Position numbers and translations under genes: made by a program
Virus record (IMG/VR): IMGVR_UViG_3300028829_006578
Coordinates: 1-22,677 of that record
DNA length: 22,677 nucleotides
From: a virus
Strand: one strand, 5' to 3'
Part shown: piece after piece, positions 1,087 to 17,325 of the stretch
Layout of the letters: the number at the start of each line of letters is the position of its first letter
Numbering within the stretch: position 1 is the stretch's first letter
The notes under the pieces: model-generated
What the model was told of the DNA's origin: nothing
Seen by the model: only the letters and a program-made list of their open reading frames with translations
The model's database searches: none

Positions 1087-1956
1087 ATGGCATATTCGAA
1101 CGAAGTAATGGACCATTTTGACAACCCCCGCAATGTCGGTTCTCTTGATAAAAGTAAAGATAATGTTGGCACAGGTCTTGTAGGTGCGCCTGAATGTTTT
1201 GGTGGTGAAACTTTAGTTCACACACCAATTCAGCAGTATATTTCATTAGAAGATGCTTACCATTTAGGACGAGCAATCAATGTATGGTCTTATAATATTG
1301 CTGAAGAACGATATCAATTTAAAACAGCCAAGGTAGTTCATTCTGGTAAAAAAGAACTATATACGTATGAGATTGAGGACCGACAAATTCGTGTAACACC
1401 AGACCACGAATTTCTCACATTAGATAATGGATATCGTCCTGTCAATTTAATTGGTGACCATGAATTTATTCGTGGTGTTCGTGCTGAAGTTGGTGTCGAA
1501 GGTCAAGGTGATTTTGAATCAGCACATAAATTGGTCATGATTTGTTCAGATATTCCTGCTGAAGTGGATGATTGTTATACGTTACAAGTAGAAGAAACAA
1601 ATAATTATATTATTGTTACACACTTTGATCATGAATATTATTCAGGTATTGTTGCAAAAAATTGTGGCGACGTGATGAAGCTTCAAATAGAAGTCGATGA
1701 AAATGAACGAATTATCGATGCTAAGTTTAAGACTTTTGGATGTGGTTCAGCCGTGGCATCAAGTTCACTTGCAACTGAGTGGGTTAAAGATATGACTGTT
1801 GATGAAGCTTTTAACATAAAAAATTCTGCCATTGTCGAGTCGCTCTCTTTGCCGCCCATCAAGGTGCACTGCTCAGTCTTGGCGGAGGATGCAATCAAAG
1901 CGGCAATTGCAGATTATCGAAAAAAGAAACAATTAAAGGAAACACAAAATGTTTAG
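1087..1956 (+). CDS. iscU: IscU Fe-S cluster scaffold interrupted by a mini-intein
   Basis: The 289-aa product is an IscU with an insertion. Residues 1-36 (MAYSNEVMDHFDNPRNVGSL...VGAPE) and 193-289 (CGDVMKLQIEVDENE..., FGCGSAVASS, LPPIKVHCS, LAEDAIKAAI) join to a 133-aa IscU, close to the usual 128. The three cluster-ligand Cys, the Asp of CGD and the LPPxK chaperone (HscA) recognition motif are all present. IscU builds a [2Fe-2S] cluster in the cytoplasm from cysteine-desulfurase sulfur and hands it to A-type carriers, two of which are encoded nearby. The insertion at residues 37-192 is an intein that must excise to restore GAPE-CGDVMK. TAGGAG upstream supports the ATG. The stop overlaps the next start. 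No IscS, HscA/B or ferredoxin gene is visible, so the phage protein would rely on host partners. Confidence 0.95.
   Translation: MAYSNEVMDHFDNPRNVGSLDKSKDNVGTGLVGAPECFGGETLVHTPIQQYISLEDAYHLGRAINVWSYNIAEERYQFKTAKVVHSGKKELYTYEIEDRQIRVTPDHEFLTLDNGYRPVNLIGDHEFIRGVRAEVGVEGQGDFESAHKLVMICSDIPAEVDDCYTLQVEETNNYIIVTHFDHEYYSGIVAKNCGDVMKLQIEVDENERIIDAKFKTFGCGSAVASSSLATEWVKDMTVDEAFNIKNSAIVESLSLPPIKVHCSVLAEDAIKAAIADYRKKKQLKETQNV
1195..1662 (+). other. Mini-intein (Hint domain, no homing endonuclease) within IscU
   Basis: This segment encodes IscU residues 37-192, 156 aa. Block A is CFGGETLVHTP with Cys1. Block B is RQIRVTPDHEFLTLD, with the TxxH pattern. Block F is CYTLQVEETNNYIIVTH. Block G is GIVAKN followed by Cys+1 of the C-extein. 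The penultimate residue is Lys where most inteins have His, yet Cys1, the block-B His, the terminal Asn and Cys+1 are all kept, so splicing remains plausible. No LAGLIDADG or HNH region fits in this length. The C-extein nucleophile is the active-site Cys of IscU, so the host protein is inactive until splicing. The boundaries follow directly from alignment with uninterrupted IscU (GAPACGDVMK). Confidence 0.93.
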
Positions 1957-2949: not shown

Positions 2950-3138
2950 ATGACAGTTTATCTTGTAATGTGGAAATCATCAAAATCAAATGGTGTTTCA
3001 GCAGTTTTTAATTCACAGGCAGCGGCTGATAAAGCTTGTGAAATGTTTCGTGAAACACGTGAAGATTCTTCCACGGCATTTCATGTAGCACCATTTCTTG
3101 TTCAGTCAGAGGAGTTTTTGAATGATTCAAGTAACTAA
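2950..3138 (+). CDS. Small hypothetical protein
   Basis: The product has 62 aa and starts MTVYLVMWKSSKSNG. AAGGAG lies eight bases before the ATG, a good ribosome site. The sequence suggests a small alpha/beta fold: a beta strand (VYLVMW), then a helix (SQAAADKACEMFRETRED), then a strand (FHVAPFLV). The end overlaps the start of the A-type carrier gene by 17 bases, so the two are probably translated together. No function is assignable. Confidence 0.72.
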   Translation: MTVYLVMWKSSKSNGVSAVFNSQAAADKACEMFRETREDSSTAFHVAPFLVQSEEFLNDSSN

Positions 3139-3475
3139 GGAGGCTGCTGAAGCTTTATTGACATCCTATATGGCAGGAGATTTAGATCCGAAGAAAACTC
3201 TTTTGAGAGTTGGTGCGAATTCAGGAGGTTGTTCTGGTTGGCGCTGGGAACTTGAAACAAATTCAAAAGATGAAATAGGTGAAGATGATGTAACATTCGA
3301 ATCAAATGATATATCAGTCGTTGTGAATAAAGAACTTTATGAAGAAATTATTGGCCCTGTGAAGATTGACTACAGTCAAAAGAATCTTGTAGAGCAAGGT
3401 TTTGTCTTCATACGGCAAAGCGGCCAGCAATGTGGCTGTGGAGAAAGTTTTACACCCTATAAAGAATTTGCTTGA
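3122..3475 (+). CDS. A-type Fe-S cluster carrier (IscA/ErpA/SufA-like)
   Basis: The product has 117 aa, the normal family length. It begins IQVTKEAAEALL as A-type carriers do, and has LLRVGANSGGCSGWRWEL with the first conserved Cys, the central pattern VVNKELYEEIIGPVKIDYSQ, and the C-terminal QCGCGESF with the last two Cys. All three cluster ligands are present. The role is to receive an Fe-S cluster from a scaffold such as IscU and deliver it to apoproteins. The ATG lies inside the preceding gene, next to GAGGAG. The last codons overlap the -35 of a promoter for the next transcript. It is distinct from the carrier at 1-260, so this phage segment encodes two A-type carriers around one IscU. 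Confidence 0.92.
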   Translation: MIQVTKEAAEALLTSYMAGDLDPKKTLLRVGANSGGCSGWRWELETNSKDEIGEDDVTFESNDISVVVNKELYEEIIGPVKIDYSQKNLVEQGFVFIRQSGQQCGCGESFTPYKEFA

Positions 3476-6378: not shown

Positions 6379-6506
6379 ATGAAAAAATTCCTCTTCCTCT
6401 TTTCTCTCATCTTTTCTCTCATCTTTTCAACAGCTTACGCCGATAAACCAAAAGCCGCATTTGTCTATGTAGGACCTGTAGGAGATGGTGGTTGGACCTA
6501 CGCACA
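6379..6506 (+). CDS. BMP/PnrA-type substrate-binding protein, exon 1
   Basis: This is the 5' part of a gene read as join(6379..6506, 9363..10281), 348 aa after splicing. AAAGGAA lies five bases before the ATG. Residues 1-21 form a clear signal peptide, ending STAYA before DKPKAAF, so the protein should be exported to the periplasm. The exon continues AAFVYVGPVGDGGWTYA, the first strand and ligand-loop motif of BMP-family (PnrA, nucleoside-binding) proteins. It stops after two bases of the 43rd codon. Without splicing, translation would end at TGA 6529-6531 and give a useless 50-aa peptide. See 9363-10281 for the remainder. Confidence 0.88.
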
Positions 6507-7056
6507 GTGCGACATGAAGTCGTTGGTTTGATGTAGATGAGAGTTCTACTATGATTTACTACAATCATATCACTGTCCCTGAAGCAGGCATCCGAGCAGA
6601 AATGCTTTGTCTGAAGCCTTCATACAGAGATGTAAGAAAGATAAACGAAAGTGAACCGAAGCTGCAAGTAAGATCTGCAGCTGAACTGATAACGTATCCC
6701 GAGTCTGCAATGTATTCGCAACTTGCCCACAAATGTCCTGTGCAAGAATACAACGAACTGATCACCAAAGTGGCAACTGGTGACGTAGTAGACGTAATAA
6801 TAGACGTAGTGGGGTATAAAGGCGGTATCTTCCCTTACAGTAAAACAAACCAACGAAACATGGTAAACCTGTATAGCAGTCAGAGCAATGATTCAAACGT
6901 CAACTCTGACAAGTTCATGAGAGCGAATGCTATGCTGGTAAAGGAAGTCACAGAAAGCGAATGCTCTGCTGTAATCGCAGAGATAGCTGCATCATGCAGT
7001 AACACGAAAGTGTGCAGACTTGTGACAGATCAGAACAATAGTAGCAGAGTAGAACT
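6507..7056 (+). ncRNA. Group II intron ribozyme, domains I-III
   Basis: These 550 bases run from the GUGCG 5' splice site to the maturase start, the usual size for domains I-III. GTGCGACATGAAGTC resembles the 5' ends of chloroplast-like bacterial group II introns as I recall them. Other domain-I-like pieces are CGAAAGTGAACCGAAGC near 6647-6663 and AAAGTGGCAACTGG near 6768-6781. I did not fold the full domain. A 169-codon open frame (6551-7060) crosses this region and ends in an ATGA overlap with the maturase. I treat it as fortuitous, because the ribozyme must occupy the same bases. Confidence 0.75.
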
Positions 7057-9063
7057 ATGACTTTAGTTTCAGATGTAAGCAAATCAGTTGAGTCAAGACT
7101 CGTAGAGAAGACATCAACTGGCAACACTGAGAAGTGTTTCAATGCAAATGACCAGAAGCATGTTGTATCCAACTGGGATGACATTAGCTGGAAGTATGTT
7201 GAGAGACACGTAGCACGTCTACAAAGCAAAATTGCCGTAGCAGCAATCAATGAAGATCATAAACTTGTGCGTGACCTTCAAAGATTACTTGTAAAATCTT
7301 ACGCCGCTAAGTTCATTGCCGTCAGGCAGGTGGCGCAGATCAACACTGGTAAGTTTAGTAGTGGTCTTGATGGACAACTCTGGTTGAGCCCACAACGAAA
7401 ACTTAGAGAAGCACTTGAACTAAACCCCTTCACAACGTCATATGATGCCGTGAAAGAAGTGAAGATTCCAAAGAAGCAGAAAGGTCAATTCCGCACACTT
7501 GGTATTCCGACGATAAGAGATAGAGCATTACAGATGCTCTGGAAATTAGCGTTAGAGCCAGTTGCAGAAGTCCGAGCCGATGACGAATCTTTTGGTTATA
7601 GAAAGCTCCGAGATGCCGAAGCAGCCGCAGCACAGATTCGTATGAATTTGTCGTCAAGAACCCAAGGTAAGAGAACGTATCACTACGTGCTTGAAGCCGA
7701 TATAAAAGGTTTCTTTGACAACATCTCACACGATTGGTTGCTGAAGAACATCCCGATGGACACGAAAGTGTTGCAAGCTATGTTGAGTGCAGGCGTAATA
7801 ATGCGATCTGATGAACAACCAGCCAAAGACTCAGATACCTCTGCAGGCACACCGCAAGGTGGCGTGTTGAGTCCAGTCTTAGCTAACATCGTTCTTGATG
7901 GTCTTCAGAAAGCCATTCACGAAGGTATGTATCCGACTCAGAAGTTGTATACAGACAAGAAAGGTGGTTTTACTTATTTCTACAAGAAGACAAATAAGCG
8001 TGACGCAAAACGAGGTAACAGAATAGTCAGAAAGCAGTATGCTGCTGGTTATAAAGTTGTCCGTTATGCCGATGACTTCATTGTCTGCTGTAGAGGTGAG
8101 AGAAGAGCCCATGACGTGAAGAAAATTGTGAACGAATTCTTGTCTGACAGAGGTTTAGAACTGAACGAAGAAAAGACCGTTGTGACGTCAGTTGCAGATG
8201 GTTTTGACTTCCTTGGTTGGAACTTCAAGATGACAAGAAGTAACAAGTTCTGGAAACGTCCGAGCCACGATAATATGTCTGCTCACGAAGCGAAGCTGAA
8301 AGAATTGCTGAAGAGAGGAATTCCGAACAGCCGAATTGAGTTAGCCGATCTATTTATGAAGATAAATGTTGTCAAAAGAGGTTGGATGGCATATCACAAA
8401 GGTTGTGATAATCTGCCAGCCTACAGCGATGGTATTTCATTCCGAACGTGGGACAAATGCTTCAAGTATTTGAAGCATACTAAAACCAGAATGCTCGTTC
8501 CAGATTTCATAAAGAAGCACTTAGTTGACCGACCTGGTGTGAAAGGTGGTAGAAATATGACCTTCTTTGCTAATGACCCGTCACGCTTTGATTACAGCCT
8601 GAATACACCGCACATCGTGTATCTTGAGCCACATCAAACGTTCTACAAACATATTGATGATCGCCGACCAGAGAAAGGTATAAATCCTTTCTTGACTGAG
8701 CATCAGCCATATGTTCGTTGGTGGCAGAGTTATAAAGCACAGAGAACGCACCAGAACTCATATATACTAAGAATTCTGAAGAACCAAAGTGCTGTGTGTC
8801 CAGTCTGTGACCAGTTCATAGATCCTGATATACATAGTCCGAGTGTTCTTCCAAAGTTATTAGGTGACAAATCAAGAAAGATAAAAGACGTGCAAGCAGT
8901 GCACTTTGACTGCCGAGCGTCATACAAGTGCTACAAAGGTTATCATCCTGATGCGTTTGATAACTTTGATAAAGTTTGCCAAGACTCAGTGCTTACTACA
9001 CGTGAGATACTGAGCCGTTATAACCCTAATCTTGTGAGACCAGAAGATGTTCTACCTGACTGA
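7057..9063 (+). CDS. ltrA: Group II intron reverse transcriptase/maturase (LtrA-like)
   Basis: The product has 668 aa. It reverse-transcribes intron RNA during retrohoming and helps it fold and splice. The N-terminal RT0 region (about 40-115) has RLQSKIAVAAINEDHKLVRD and QRLLVKSYAAKFIAVRQVAQ. Catalytic parts are EADIKGFFD with Asp215, TPQGGVLSPVLANIVLD (265-281) and YADD (337-340). A maturase X domain follows (about 390-560, with RGWMAYHKG). The tail holds CPVC at 581 and VHFDC at 615-619, the frame of an HNH endonuclease, but the usual His-His, Asn and terminal Cys-His positions read as non-catalytic residues, so DNA cleavage by this domain is doubtful. RT0 and domain order suit the chloroplast-like class. 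The ATG lies in domain IV of the intron, with no strong ribosome site. Confidence 0.95.
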   Translation: MTLVSDVSKSVESRLVEKTSTGNTEKCFNANDQKHVVSNWDDISWKYVERHVARLQSKIAVAAINEDHKLVRDLQRLLVKSYAAKFIAVRQVAQINTGKFSSGLDGQLWLSPQRKLREALELNPFTTSYDAVKEVKIPKKQKGQFRTLGIPTIRDRALQMLWKLALEPVAEVRADDESFGYRKLRDAEAAAAQIRMNLSSRTQGKRTYHYVLEADIKGFFDNISHDWLLKNIPMDTKVLQAMLSAGVIMRSDEQPAKDSDTSAGTPQGGVLSPVLANIVLDGLQKAIHEGMYPTQKLYTDKKGGFTYFYKKTNKRDAKRGNRIVRKQYAAGYKVVRYADDFIVCCRGERRAHDVKKIVNEFLSDRGLELNEEKTVVTSVADGFDFLGWNFKMTRSNKFWKRPSHDNMSAHEAKLKELLKRGIPNSRIELADLFMKINVVKRGWMAYHKGCDNLPAYSDGISFRTWDKCFKYLKHTKTRMLVPDFIKKHLVDRPGVKGGRNMTFFANDPSRFDYSLNTPHIVYLEPHQTFYKHIDDRRPEKGINPFLTEHQPYVRWWQSYKAQRTHQNSYILRILKNQSAVCPVCDQFIDPDIHSPSVLPKLLGDKSRKIKDVQAVHFDCRASYKCYKGYHPDAFDNFDKVCQDSVLTTREILSRYNPNLVRPEDVLPD

Positions 9064-9287
9064 GACTGAAGACGTCAACCCTATCGTCAGCAATGATGTT
9101 AGTAACGTTGCCACGTCTGTTCAGCCAAATAGAGCCGCTACCGGTGCCGCATCGCCAGCCGATTCGTCACCACCTGAGAACATAAGAAGAGATGCTATAA
9201 GATCTTCCAAAATGAAGTTTACCCACTTCAAGAAGAAGATTGCAGACCTTATACAGAGTAACAGATCGTGATAACCTTTTCTGATGA

Positions 9288-9362
9288 AAGCGGTATGCGT
9301 AGAAATGCGCACGTACCGTTTGACGAGAGACATGCTCACGTGAGTGAGTGTGTCTACTCTAC
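9288..9362 (+). ncRNA. Group II intron domains V and VI with branch-point A
   Basis: Domain V (9288-9321) is 34 nt. AAGCGGTA pairs with TACCGTTT and carries the AGC triad at 9289-9291. There is a two-base CG bulge at 9312-9313, an upper stem TGCGTA/TGCGCA and a GAAA loop (9302-9305). Domain VI (9325-9359) pairs GAG with CTC below and AGACA with TGTCT above bulged A9356. It then continues through TGCTCAC/GTGAGTG to a GTGA loop. The intron ends AC at 9361-9362. The 9064-9287 stretch before it is the distal part of domain IV and holds no gene I trust. Confidence 0.93.
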
Positions 9363-10281
9363 TGACCTTGGTAGGCGTGAACTTGAGAAAGCAGGATTTG
9401 AAACAACTTATGTTGAATCTGTTCCTGAAACTGATTCACAAAGAGTTCTTCGTAATTTAGCAAGGCGTGGTTATGATGTGATTTTTACAACCAGTTTTGG
9501 TTTTATGGATCCAACCCTTGAAGTCGCAAAACAATTTCCAGATACAGTCTTTCTACATTGTTCTGGATTTAAAACAGCAGAAAACATGGGCAATTATTTT
9601 GCTCGAATGTATCAAGCAAAATTTTTAGCAGGTATGGTTGCGGGGTTGACAACCAAGACAAATGAAATTGGTATTGTTGGATCACATCCAATTCCTGAGA
9701 TTGTTCGTCATATCAATGCCTTCACACTTGGCGCTCGTTCAGTAAATCCAGACGCAACGGTGAATGTAATTTGGGTCAACTCTTGGTTTGATCCTGCCAA
9801 AGAAGGTGCTGCTACCAATACATTGATTGATAATGGAGCAGATATTGTTCACATCACAACTGATTCTGCTGCAGCAACTCAAGTCGCAGAAAAACGAGGA
9901 AAATATGCGATTGGAAATGATTCTGATATGACTCTTTATGGACCAAAGGCTCATTTGACCGCACCAATTTTCAACTGGGGACGATACTATCTTGATGTAA
10001 TGAATCGTGTTGATTCTGGTGAATGGAGTTCAACTAGTGAATGGTGGGGAATGAACACAGGAATCGTTGATTTATCAAAGTTTGGTCCAATGATTCATTC
10101 AAAAGTTCAAACTCTTGTAAATAATAAGAAACAAGAAATTACAACTGGTCGTTTTAAAGTCTTCGCAGGACCAATTTATGACCGTGATGGAAATCTTGTT
10201 GTAGCAGCAGGTGAGGTTCCTTCAGATCCAGACCTTCTGTCAATGAATTATTTTGTCGAAGGTGTAAAAGGTAATCTATAA
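9363..10281 (+). CDS. BMP/PnrA-type substrate-binding protein, exon 2
   Basis: This exon supplies residues 43-348 of the split gene that starts at 6379. After splicing the protein reads GDGGWTYA-HDLGRRELE, then VPETDSQRVLRNLARRGYDV, IFTTSFGFMDPTLEVA, FLHCSGFKTAENMGNYFARM, AKFLAGMVAGLTTKTNEIG, VNSWFDPAKEGAATNTLI and GADIVHITTDSAAATQVAEK. These are BMP/Med/PnrA-family blocks in the family order, including two-lobe ligand contacts. Full length is normal for the family. Such proteins deliver purine nucleosides or related ligands to an ABC importer. No permease or ATPase gene is present, so the phage protein would have to work with host transporters or act as a scavenger. The frame is also open upstream into the intron to 9268, but that ATG is intron sequence. 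Confidence 0.92.
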
Positions 10282-13703: not shown

Positions 13704-15485
13704 TTAGAATCTTACAGGATTCAGTACCCAATAATCTTCAGTATCTTCTGAAGCCATTTGACGATTTTCACCGGCACCACAAGCTAATACTTGACCATCT
13801 TCAAGTAGAACCATCAAACTGACACTAGAGCCATTACCATAGAAAGAAGCACCTGTAATATAATCTCGACAAATCACAGGTGTTGGTGTAGACATTTGAT
13901 CTGCATGTCCAAGTCCTAATTGACCTTGACCATTATATCCGCAAGTATACAATCTTCCTTGGTCTGTTAGAACACCAAAAGAACTATAGCTACCATCACC
14001 GCCACTGATCATTTTAGTTACAGATTCACCAGCTTGTAAGAAGCTCATGTCAATTGCTGCCCAAGTTGATTGAGCCGAAGTTCCATTTGAACCAAGTTGA
14101 CCATAACCATTATAACCGCAAGCATAAAGTGTTCCGTCTGTTTTTAGAATCCAAGTTGATTGATAGTCTGTATAATAAACCATTGCAATTTCTTGAACAT
14201 CAGTTGCTGTGAGTGTAGGTATTCTTGAATTTGTATTCACTCCACCAGAACCAGTATTTCCATTTACTCCAGTATTTCCATAATAGTCTGTTCCACAAAC
14301 ATGTAATGTATCATCTGTACACAAGAACCAAGTTGCTCGATAATTTGCCCAAGCTTTCTTTACATTTTTTCCAGAAAGTGTGCCATTATTTGCGATAAAT
14401 GGAAGTGTAGAATCAACAGTTGAATTATTGCCTAATTCATATTGAGCATTTCGTCCCCAAACATGGGCACGGAAAGCATCATCAACAGCAACACAATGCG
14501 TATATCTTTCTCGTCCGAGTGACAACCAGTCAATTGTTCGTGGATCAACTGCTTCAACAGTTGTTTCACCAGTATCTGGATCAATAACCGCTGGTTGGCC
14601 GGTAACAACAGTATTGAAATAAGGAACTTGAATAAACCAATTTGATTGATCAGTATTTCCTCTTCCAAGTTGTCCTGATTCGTTCCATCCAGCCATGTAT
14701 ACTTTATCATCAGAACCAATCACACCAGCAGTGTTACGTCCTTCAGTTCCCGCTGTATGAGCAATGAATTTAACTTTTAAGCCACCAGCTGACCTTCGGA
14801 ATGGATTTGCTCCATCTTCGACAGCCATAACATTAACTGGAACATAAGCATCAGCACCAATACCCGTTGATCCATATTCAAGTCTTCCCCAAGTCCAAAG
14901 TTCATCATTTTGATCAATAAGCTTTCCGTTATACGCATGACCTTGCCAAATATGATTTTCTTTCACACCGGGGAAAGTGCTTGGGAATGGAAACAACATC
15001 GGATTTGCTCTGTCTCCGCTATGGTTTCCTTGACCCATCATATAATGACTACCATATCCCCATGTTCTTACAGAATCATTATCCATAATTACCAAGGCAT
15101 TATGTGAATGATATCCGACGTTTCGAAAGGGAACAAGCGCTCGAGCACGGAGAGAACTTCTTGATGGATTTGATGTCCACTCTGGTAGACCATCTGAATT
15201 TACATAAAGAATTTGATTTTGTTCTCCGATTGGTAGTCTTTCTAATTTAATACCATCGTGATAGAGAATGTCACCCTCGGTTGTCGCAATACCTTGCGTT
15301 CCTTGAGCAAACAAATCCCACTCAGATGAATCGAAAGCAGTTTCACTTAAATTGTCACTTGATTCTACAACACAAATATAAGCAGAACCATTATAGTAAA
15401 CAACATCTTGCTTGCGATAATGAACGGAAGGTAAAAACTCACCTTTCCAAGTTATAGCAACTTTGCCGAGTATAATATTAGCCAT
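13704..15485 (-). CDS. RCC1-repeat tail-fibre protein
   Basis: The product has 593 aa. The N-terminus (ITWKGEFLPSVHYRKQDVVY) resembles a carbohydrate-binding 5/12-type fold common at the front of phage fibre proteins. A linker (GDILYHDGIKLERLPIG) follows. From about residue 115 there are roughly eight RCC1-type repeats, for example LWTWGRLEYGSTG, VYMAGWNESGQLGRGN, AHVWGRNAQYELGNNS, LYACGYNGYGQLGSNG and LYTCGYNGQGQLGLGH. RCC1 repeats fold into a seven-bladed beta-propeller, best known in eukaryotic exchange factors but also found in bacteria. In this run of fibre genes the propeller is probably a receptor-binding head. The next gene upstream is a paralogue. Confidence 0.88.
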   Translation of the reverse strand: MANIILGKVAITWKGEFLPSVHYRKQDVVYYNGSAYICVVESSDNLSETAFDSSEWDLFAQGTQGIATTEGDILYHDGIKLERLPIGEQNQILYVNSDGLPEWTSNPSRSSLRARALVPFRNVGYHSHNALVIMDNDSVRTWGYGSHYMMGQGNHSGDRANPMLFPFPSTFPGVKENHIWQGHAYNGKLIDQNDELWTWGRLEYGSTGIGADAYVPVNVMAVEDGANPFRRSAGGLKVKFIAHTAGTEGRNTAGVIGSDDKVYMAGWNESGQLGRGNTDQSNWFIQVPYFNTVVTGQPAVIDPDTGETTVEAVDPRTIDWLSLGRERYTHCVAVDDAFRAHVWGRNAQYELGNNSTVDSTLPFIANNGTLSGKNVKKAWANYRATWFLCTDDTLHVCGTDYYGNTGVNGNTGSGGVNTNSRIPTLTATDVQEIAMVYYTDYQSTWILKTDGTLYACGYNGYGQLGSNGTSAQSTWAAIDMSFLQAGESVTKMISGGDGSYSSFGVLTDQGRLYTCGYNGQGQLGLGHADQMSTPTPVICRDYITGASFYGNGSSVSLMVLLEDGQVLACGAGENRQMASEDTEDYWVLNPVRF

Positions 15486-15513
15486 TTTTCTAAACCTTTA
15501 TATCGTGTTGTAT

Positions 15514-17325
15514 TTAAAAATTGAGTTTTGTTGGAACGTAAGCATCGTAAGTTTGGAGTGAACCAGTAAGTCCATAACCTCCACTTCCTGTAGCAAAAAC
15601 ATCACCATGTTCTGTTAGCATATAATTGACCATATAAGTTCTGTCTGGACCACTTGCTCCTTCATGATAATAGCAATATCCCGCTTGAGCAATGTCAACA
15701 ACTTTGTCATGAATTGGCATAAAGTGGTCAGGTAAAGCATCCAAATATGCTAGGTCTCCACTATTTCCAAGACCGGCATATCCGATCACATAATTACTAG
15801 TAACTCCTGTTCCTCTTTGACCGTTGTTGTTTAAACCATCAGCAAATACACGACCATCTTTTGTTAGAGCCAAGTATGCACATCTTAGGTTGCCCATCAT
15901 TGCTAACATTTTATCAATATTAACATTATAATAATCTGACATCATCTGATATTTTGCTGTTGTGTCAAAATCTGTTGCGCTGGTTGGTTGAAAATGTTGT
16001 GCTGTTCCGTTTACGTTATCATTAAGTCCCGTATAATAATTAATATATCCTCTGAATAGAAAACGGTCATCAAAAGTTTGAACAATTAGAGTAGCATAAC
16101 CACCATGTCTCCACCAAAACTTTTTGACATTCTTTGCAATAAGATGTCGGTCATCAATAAATGAATTTGAAGGGTCTAGTCCGGGTGTTCCCCAATCTAC
16201 TTGTCCCCAACCATTTCCTCTTCCAAGCAGTCTTCCGCTTTCTGTTAAAATTAGACTACCAAGACGATGACCTCCTGAGTAATTACTCCAGTGCCCTCGG
16301 CTAGAATGCCCTTGGAAATCAACAACCTTTTCTCCAATTTCAACTTTACGAAATTCAGAAATATGATTTCCATGATAGTTATAATTTTGACTTCCAATAG
16401 TCCATAAATTACCATCTACATCAATCATACCTGTAACGGTATGAGCATCTGAGCCAACATGAACAATCGGATGATCTTTTGTAAATTCAATCAATCTTGC
16501 TTTATAACAAGTACTTGTTGATGAATCTGGATGTCCTAAAATATTATTTGGATCATGTCCCCAACTATAAACTCGCCCATTTTCGCAAAGAGCATAGTAA
16601 CAATGATGTCCACCTTCCCAATCATAAAAATGATATATGTCTTTTACTATGTCATCTCCAATATCACTGTATTCAGACATGCTTTTCATACCACCTGCTT
16701 CTACAAAAGCACCCGGATCAGTATAATGATTGGATAAATTTGATATTCCTGGCTCGTAGTTAAGTCCTGATGACCATACTTGACCACTCGAATCTTGAAT
16801 AAAGAGTGCGCCACTTCCATACCAACCTTTTTTAGCTGGTTTGGTTCCTCTTGGAAAGTTAACTCTCAGTGGTGTGTAATAACCTTGACCCTCATCTTTA
16901 TCACCGACTCCCATTTGGCCTTCATATGTTCTACCTATAGCTCGAACAGAACCATCAGTCATAATAAAGGTTGAAAACCGATGCGAACCATATGAATAAG
17001 AGTGTTGAGTTGATGCTTTACCAACAAGAGCAGCAACTTTTGTTCCATTGCGGTCAATTGGATGGTCAAACTGTACAGCACCATTTCTTACAAAGAGGTA
17101 TTCACCATTGAAACCTGCTGCTGTTGTTGTATCACCACCAACGATAATTTCACCTTTTGAAATTGCTTCAATTTGCCCTCTGGCAAAAAGTTTAAAGGCA
17201 TTTGTGTTTGTATCGTAATAAAATGCCGCTCCTTCCTTGAAGACAACATCTTTATCATTGTAAGCTGAGTCCGGAGAATAGTATCCTCTCCAGCGATACC
17301 CTAATTTTTTGTAATCTATATTCAT
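15514..17325 (-). CDS. RCC1-repeat-like tail-fibre protein, divergent paralogue
   Basis: The product has 603 aa with the same plan as its neighbour. The front, YRWRGYYSPDSAYNDKDVVF, is CBM5/12-like and is followed by a linker with GEIIVGGDTT. There are then about eight weak RCC1-like repeats, such as VRAIGRTYEGQMGVGD, VYSWGHDPNNILGHPD, LLGRGNGWGQVDWG, VFADGLNNNGQRGTG and VFATGSGGYGLTGSL. Several blades have lost the classic Gly-Gln-Leu-Gly signature, so this copy has drifted further. Tyr, His and Asn are abundant on the loops, suiting a surface that binds glycans or envelope proteins. It is translated just after the Mtd-N-type gene. Confidence 0.84.
   Translation of the reverse strand: MNIDYKKLGYRWRGYYSPDSAYNDKDVVFKEGAAFYYDTNTNAFKLFARGQIEAISKGEIIVGGDTTTAAGFNGEYLFVRNGAVQFDHPIDRNGTKVAALVGKASTQHSYSYGSHRFSTFIMTDGSVRAIGRTYEGQMGVGDKDEGQGYYTPLRVNFPRGTKPAKKGWYGSGALFIQDSSGQVWSSGLNYEPGISNLSNHYTDPGAFVEAGGMKSMSEYSDIGDDIVKDIYHFYDWEGGHHCYYALCENGRVYSWGHDPNNILGHPDSSTSTCYKARLIEFTKDHPIVHVGSDAHTVTGMIDVDGNLWTIGSQNYNYHGNHISEFRKVEIGEKVVDFQGHSSRGHWSNYSGGHRLGSLILTESGRLLGRGNGWGQVDWGTPGLDPSNSFIDDRHLIAKNVKKFWWRHGGYATLIVQTFDDRFLFRGYINYYTGLNDNVNGTAQHFQPTSATDFDTTAKYQMMSDYYNVNIDKMLAMMGNLRCAYLALTKDGRVFADGLNNNGQRGTGVTSNYVIGYAGLGNSGDLAYLDALPDHFMPIHDKVVDIAQAGYCYYHEGASGPDRTYMVNYMLTEHGDVFATGSGGYGLTGSLQTYDAYVPTKLNF

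Follow-up and report, generated by a model that had tools for sequence, protein, structure and literature searches.

The window analysed here, an entire IMG/VR virus record of 22,677 bp, raises the question of what interrupts its gene for a BMP/PnrA-family substrate-binding protein, and whether that protein can still be made. We found the gene to be split by a complete group II intron of 2,856 nt, and the anatomy of the locus makes it very probable that a mobile intron of the chloroplast-like (CL)/IIB kind was inserted in a phage BMP-family gene and is spliced out, with the binding protein being made normally. The features of the locus are as follows.

6379-6506, + strand: exon 1 of the BMP/PnrA-family substrate-binding protein gene (joined open reading frame; colinear with the uninterrupted genes of the sister contigs L037-L041)
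6507-9362, + strand: group II intron (RF00029 at the 3' end, D2/D3 homology, exact empty sites in sister phages)
6580-6622, + strand: domain I hairpin bearing a GAAGC bulge of the AARC type known from IIB (sub-threshold RF02003 alignment; UUUGUCUGAAGC motif shared with the relative L042)
6701-6706, + strand: candidate EBS2, GAGUCU (placed by visual homology with relatives; pairing at chance level)
6739-6744, + strand: candidate EBS1, UGUGCA (5/6 pairs with its own IBS1, 6/6 with the L041 allele; chance level)
6814-7025, + strand: 3' part of domain I with domains II and III (nhmmer, profile of the relatives' 5' halves)
7057-9063, + strand: intron-encoded protein (IEP) in domain IV, 668 aa (RVT_N, RVT_1 containing YADD, a weak maturase domain and, at the C terminus, a degenerate HNH)
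9288-9321, + strand: domain V (RF00029; 34-nt hairpin, AGC, GAAA loop)
9324-9360, + strand: domain VI with predicted bulged branch-point A9356 (RF00029 and fold)
9363-10281, + strand: exon 2 of the BMP/PnrA-family gene (PF02608, E 1.7e-56; joined open reading frame)

The contig is viral: the record is classed as phage in IMG/VR, it carries RCC1-repeat and tail-fibre families, and a terminase is present in two sister contigs, in line with the earlier note, which had called the gene phage-borne. DUF3310 is encoded on the contig as well.

Group II intron termini were judged by a 5' GUGYG, a 3' AY and a bulged A 7-8 nt upstream. Here, the intron opens with GUGCG at G6507 (sequence from 6507: GUGCGACAUGAAGUCG) and closes with ..UCUAC at C9362 (AC at 9361-9362; terminal sequence ..UGUCUACUCUAC), and in the folded domain VI hairpin A9356 is unpaired, 7 nt from the intron 3' end. 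The Rfam model RF00029 (D5/D6) matched 9286-9362 over its full length (model positions 1-77) with 56.7 bits and E 6.5e-9 at a cut-off of 40 bits; nowhere else in the record did a group II model exceed its cut-off. The earlier note had described a complete intron with these boundaries, a 34-nt domain V with AGC and GAAA loop and a domain VI with bulged A9356 and AC end, and had named a covariance search as the check on domains V/VI; the model, the fold and the termini agree with all of this. Neither D5/D6 nor the reverse transcriptase (RT) showed degradation.

Joining 6379-6506 to 9363-10281 yielded an in-frame protein of 348 aa that reads ...GDGGWTYAHDLGRRELE... at the junction; thus the reading frame is restored by excision, as previously claimed. 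Exon 1 covers a likely signal peptide and the first motif and runs up to position 2 of codon 43, and exon 2 is the PF02608 (Bmp) part, open and without frameshift, so that the assignment to the BMP family stands. In an unspliced mRNA a stop would be met shortly past the exon 1/intron junction. The insertion point lies in the most conserved 15-residue stretch of the protein, in agreement with the earlier note, which had placed it in the most conserved BMP motif. Compared with the L037 gene, the joined gene has a dN of 0.09 and a dS of 0.75, indicating purifying selection. Alphaproteobacterial homologues are uninterrupted and about 45-52% identical at best, and the literature searched gave no report of BMP-family genes as phage auxiliary genes.

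The empty sites in sister phages, which the earlier note had not described, are, at the level of sequence, the decisive evidence. Five IMG/VR sister phage contigs (L037-L041) carry the uninterrupted gene, with 70-84% amino acid identity, and all five are contiguous exactly across 6506/9363 when aligned base to base. These genes represent three allele types (DNA identity 82, 78 and 67%), and L037 and L038 have a common gene order on both flanks. A second copy of the intron at the BMP site was found neither in the five sister phages nor in IMG/VR scans nor in 142 alphaproteobacterial genomes. Likewise, searches with D5 and D3 patterns revealed no copy elsewhere in IMG/VR, an IEP scan of IMG/VR returned only relatives of 27-35% identity, and the sister contigs contained no intron at other positions. 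A split match in G089 was rejected as a bacterial same-site intron, as a mere ~20 nt separate its pieces. The search for a same-site intron in bacterial BMP-family genes, proposed in the earlier note, thus found none among the 142 genomes, and the note's expectation of homing to a conserved site finds no support here, given the single copy and an encoded HNH that looks dead.

The 5' half of the ribozyme is more divergent, and none of the Rfam D1-D4 models reached its cut-off on the intron. A sub-threshold RF02003 alignment (6580-6622, 14.5 bits) is centred on the hairpin with the GAAGC bulge, whose motif also occurs in the relative L042, which matches RF02012; this alignment and the motif are what points to the 5' part of domain I. 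For the remainder, a DNA profile was built from the aligned 5' halves of ten bacterial relatives, 10/10 of which match RF02012. Its single nhmmer match in the window (6814-7025, E 2.6e-12, with a composition bias of 7.3 bits corrected by the program) takes in the D3 motif AAAGCGAAUG..CUGUAAU, and D2/D3 are, on this sequence evidence, homologous to those of bacterial chloroplast-like introns. The minimum free energy of 6507-7060 was 3.8 sd below that of shuffles. The EBS1 and EBS2 candidates form 5/6 pairs when matched to the present exon and 6/6 when matched to the L041 allele, and since shuffled sequence pairs equally well, they are candidates only; EBS/IBS pairing was accordingly dropped as independent proof of the intron. 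Two open reading frames (6551-7060 and 9047-9271) were rejected as intron genes, being without Pfam match; the former overlies the ribozyme and is therefore probably a chance frame.

The 668-aa RT frame, absent from the earlier note, is open with an intact YADD motif and matches RVT_1 (4.4e-37) and RVT_N (8.2e-25). The GIIM (maturase) domain stayed under the Pfam cut-off, and the TIGR04416 match (1.7e-80) scored 270.8 bits against a cut-off of 300. The best PDB match, far ahead of other solved structures, was the T.el4h maturase 6me0 (E 1.7e-73), which we take to be a chloroplast-like IIB intron protein. The intron therefore looks like a member of the IIB/CL class, judged by an IEP nearest to CL-class maturases (by the match to 6me0 among solved structures) and by the GAAGC bulge of AARC type. 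Relatives in bacterial genomes are about 26-40% identical and spread over many phyla, and thus point to no particular donor. An HNH endonuclease with catalytic residues is common, though optional, in the CL/IIB class. The C-terminal HNH reads HH...N...H..CH in relatives and HS...H..CR in the present IEP; with HS.../CR in place of HH/CH the endonuclease is probably inactive, and any homing would probably be endonuclease-independent. Splicing should not need it.

All sequence parts needed for splicing were shown to be present, the EBS elements as candidates, and removal of the intron leaves an intact gene. Group II introns act by established biochemistry, comprising maturase-assisted folding, branching, exon ligation, lariat release and retrohoming. 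From the anatomy we infer that the transcript would fold into a six-domain ribozyme, aided by the intron's own RT/maturase, that A9356 would attack the 5' splice site, and that ligation at CA|U would release the lariat, after which the binding protein could be made normally. The intron may have arrived by retrohoming, through reverse splicing and target-primed reverse transcription, or by retrotransposition. As the HNH endonuclease has degenerated, present mobility, if any, would probably depend for priming on strands at the replication fork and not on a protein-made nick.

Of the other readings, one concerns history only and is less likely than not: intron-linked recombination, in which the intron and ~28 nt of downstream exon came from an L039-like allele by co-conversion, or else L037 lost the intron. 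At 10/11 of the first diagnostic sites past the junction the exon is L039-like, after which exon 2 is mixed, whereas exon 1 is L037-like (5 L039-like vs 30; Fisher 7e-6, in a post hoc test). However, mosaicism extends through the entire neighbourhood (58-100% identity per 100-nt step), and the alternative state is common to L037 and L041, which makes the direction of change ambiguous. The wider picture of a phage-adapted intron lineage that circulates among alleles of one auxiliary gene, endonuclease-free via replication forks, and has left a short co-conversion patch downstream, is rather unlikely. Improbable, too, is a decaying intron that splices poorly and effectively knocks out the gene in the present phage. 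The degenerate HNH, the weak GIIM and the imperfect IBS candidates would fit such decay, but D5/D6 are canonical with a branch A, the open RT frame keeps YADD, exon 2 is free of frameshifts and loss of the HNH would not affect splicing. An assembly chimera of a bacterial intron with a phage contig is barely credible: although this is a single metagenomic contig and IMG/VR scans gave no second copy, on either side of the intron the sequence is colinear with L037/L038, through the same phage gene and its neighbours, and both ends are exact intron termini, not expected of a random chimera.

Several neighbouring genes were recorded as well. The IscU/NifU scaffold gene (window 1087-1956), about 5 kb from the intron, contains a small intein of about 150 aa just before the Cys of CGDVM, without recognised homing endonuclease; it is shared with the sister contig L129 (80% identity), and IscU genes of the phage collection match only the parts that flank it. 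Together with a nearby IscA-like Fe-S assembly gene (3122-3475, at the Pfam cut-off) it forms a phage Fe-S cluster set. L037 and L038 hold ~730 nt extra at the position corresponding to 3459-3471. Additionally, the window encodes a phage-borne Bax inhibitor-1 family membrane protein (383-1078) and, on the minus strand, two adjacent tail-fibre-like proteins with RCC1-type repeats (13704-17325).

Compared with known systems, the probably spliced CL/IIB-like intron favoured here resembles the CL IIB element T.el4h of Thermosynechococcus (6me0), to which the IEP aligns over residues 37-630, and introns of this type in its RVT_N, HNH region, AAGC bulge and 34-nt D5. It differs from CL IIB introns by the lost HNH catalytic residues and by a D1 so divergent that no Rfam D1-D4 model reaches its cut-off. 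The earlier statement that group II introns are seldom described in phages is outdated, as Merk, Jones & Eddy (NAR 2025, PMC12350094) reported 20 in curated phages, 14/20 of them within coding genes for which an intronless homologue exists, and matches in 9,229 IMG/VR contigs, often within coding genes. The present element is thus one more, well-supported phage group II intron and not a novel type of element; its contig may be included in their IMG/VR set. Thanks to the exact empty sites in sister phages it is a very clean addition to these recently recognised introns, and it is suited to testing how group II introns spread among phages. Particular to it are the host gene, the dead-looking endonuclease and the intein in nearby IscU; it shows a group II intron in a nutrient-uptake-type auxiliary gene near an intein in another auxiliary gene. 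Like the introns of Merk et al., whose IMG/VR search used the RF00029 model matched here, it is a group II intron with an RT-type IEP that splits a phage coding gene; it differs from them in that the interrupted gene encodes a BMP/PnrA-family binding protein of periplasmic type and is not a core phage gene.
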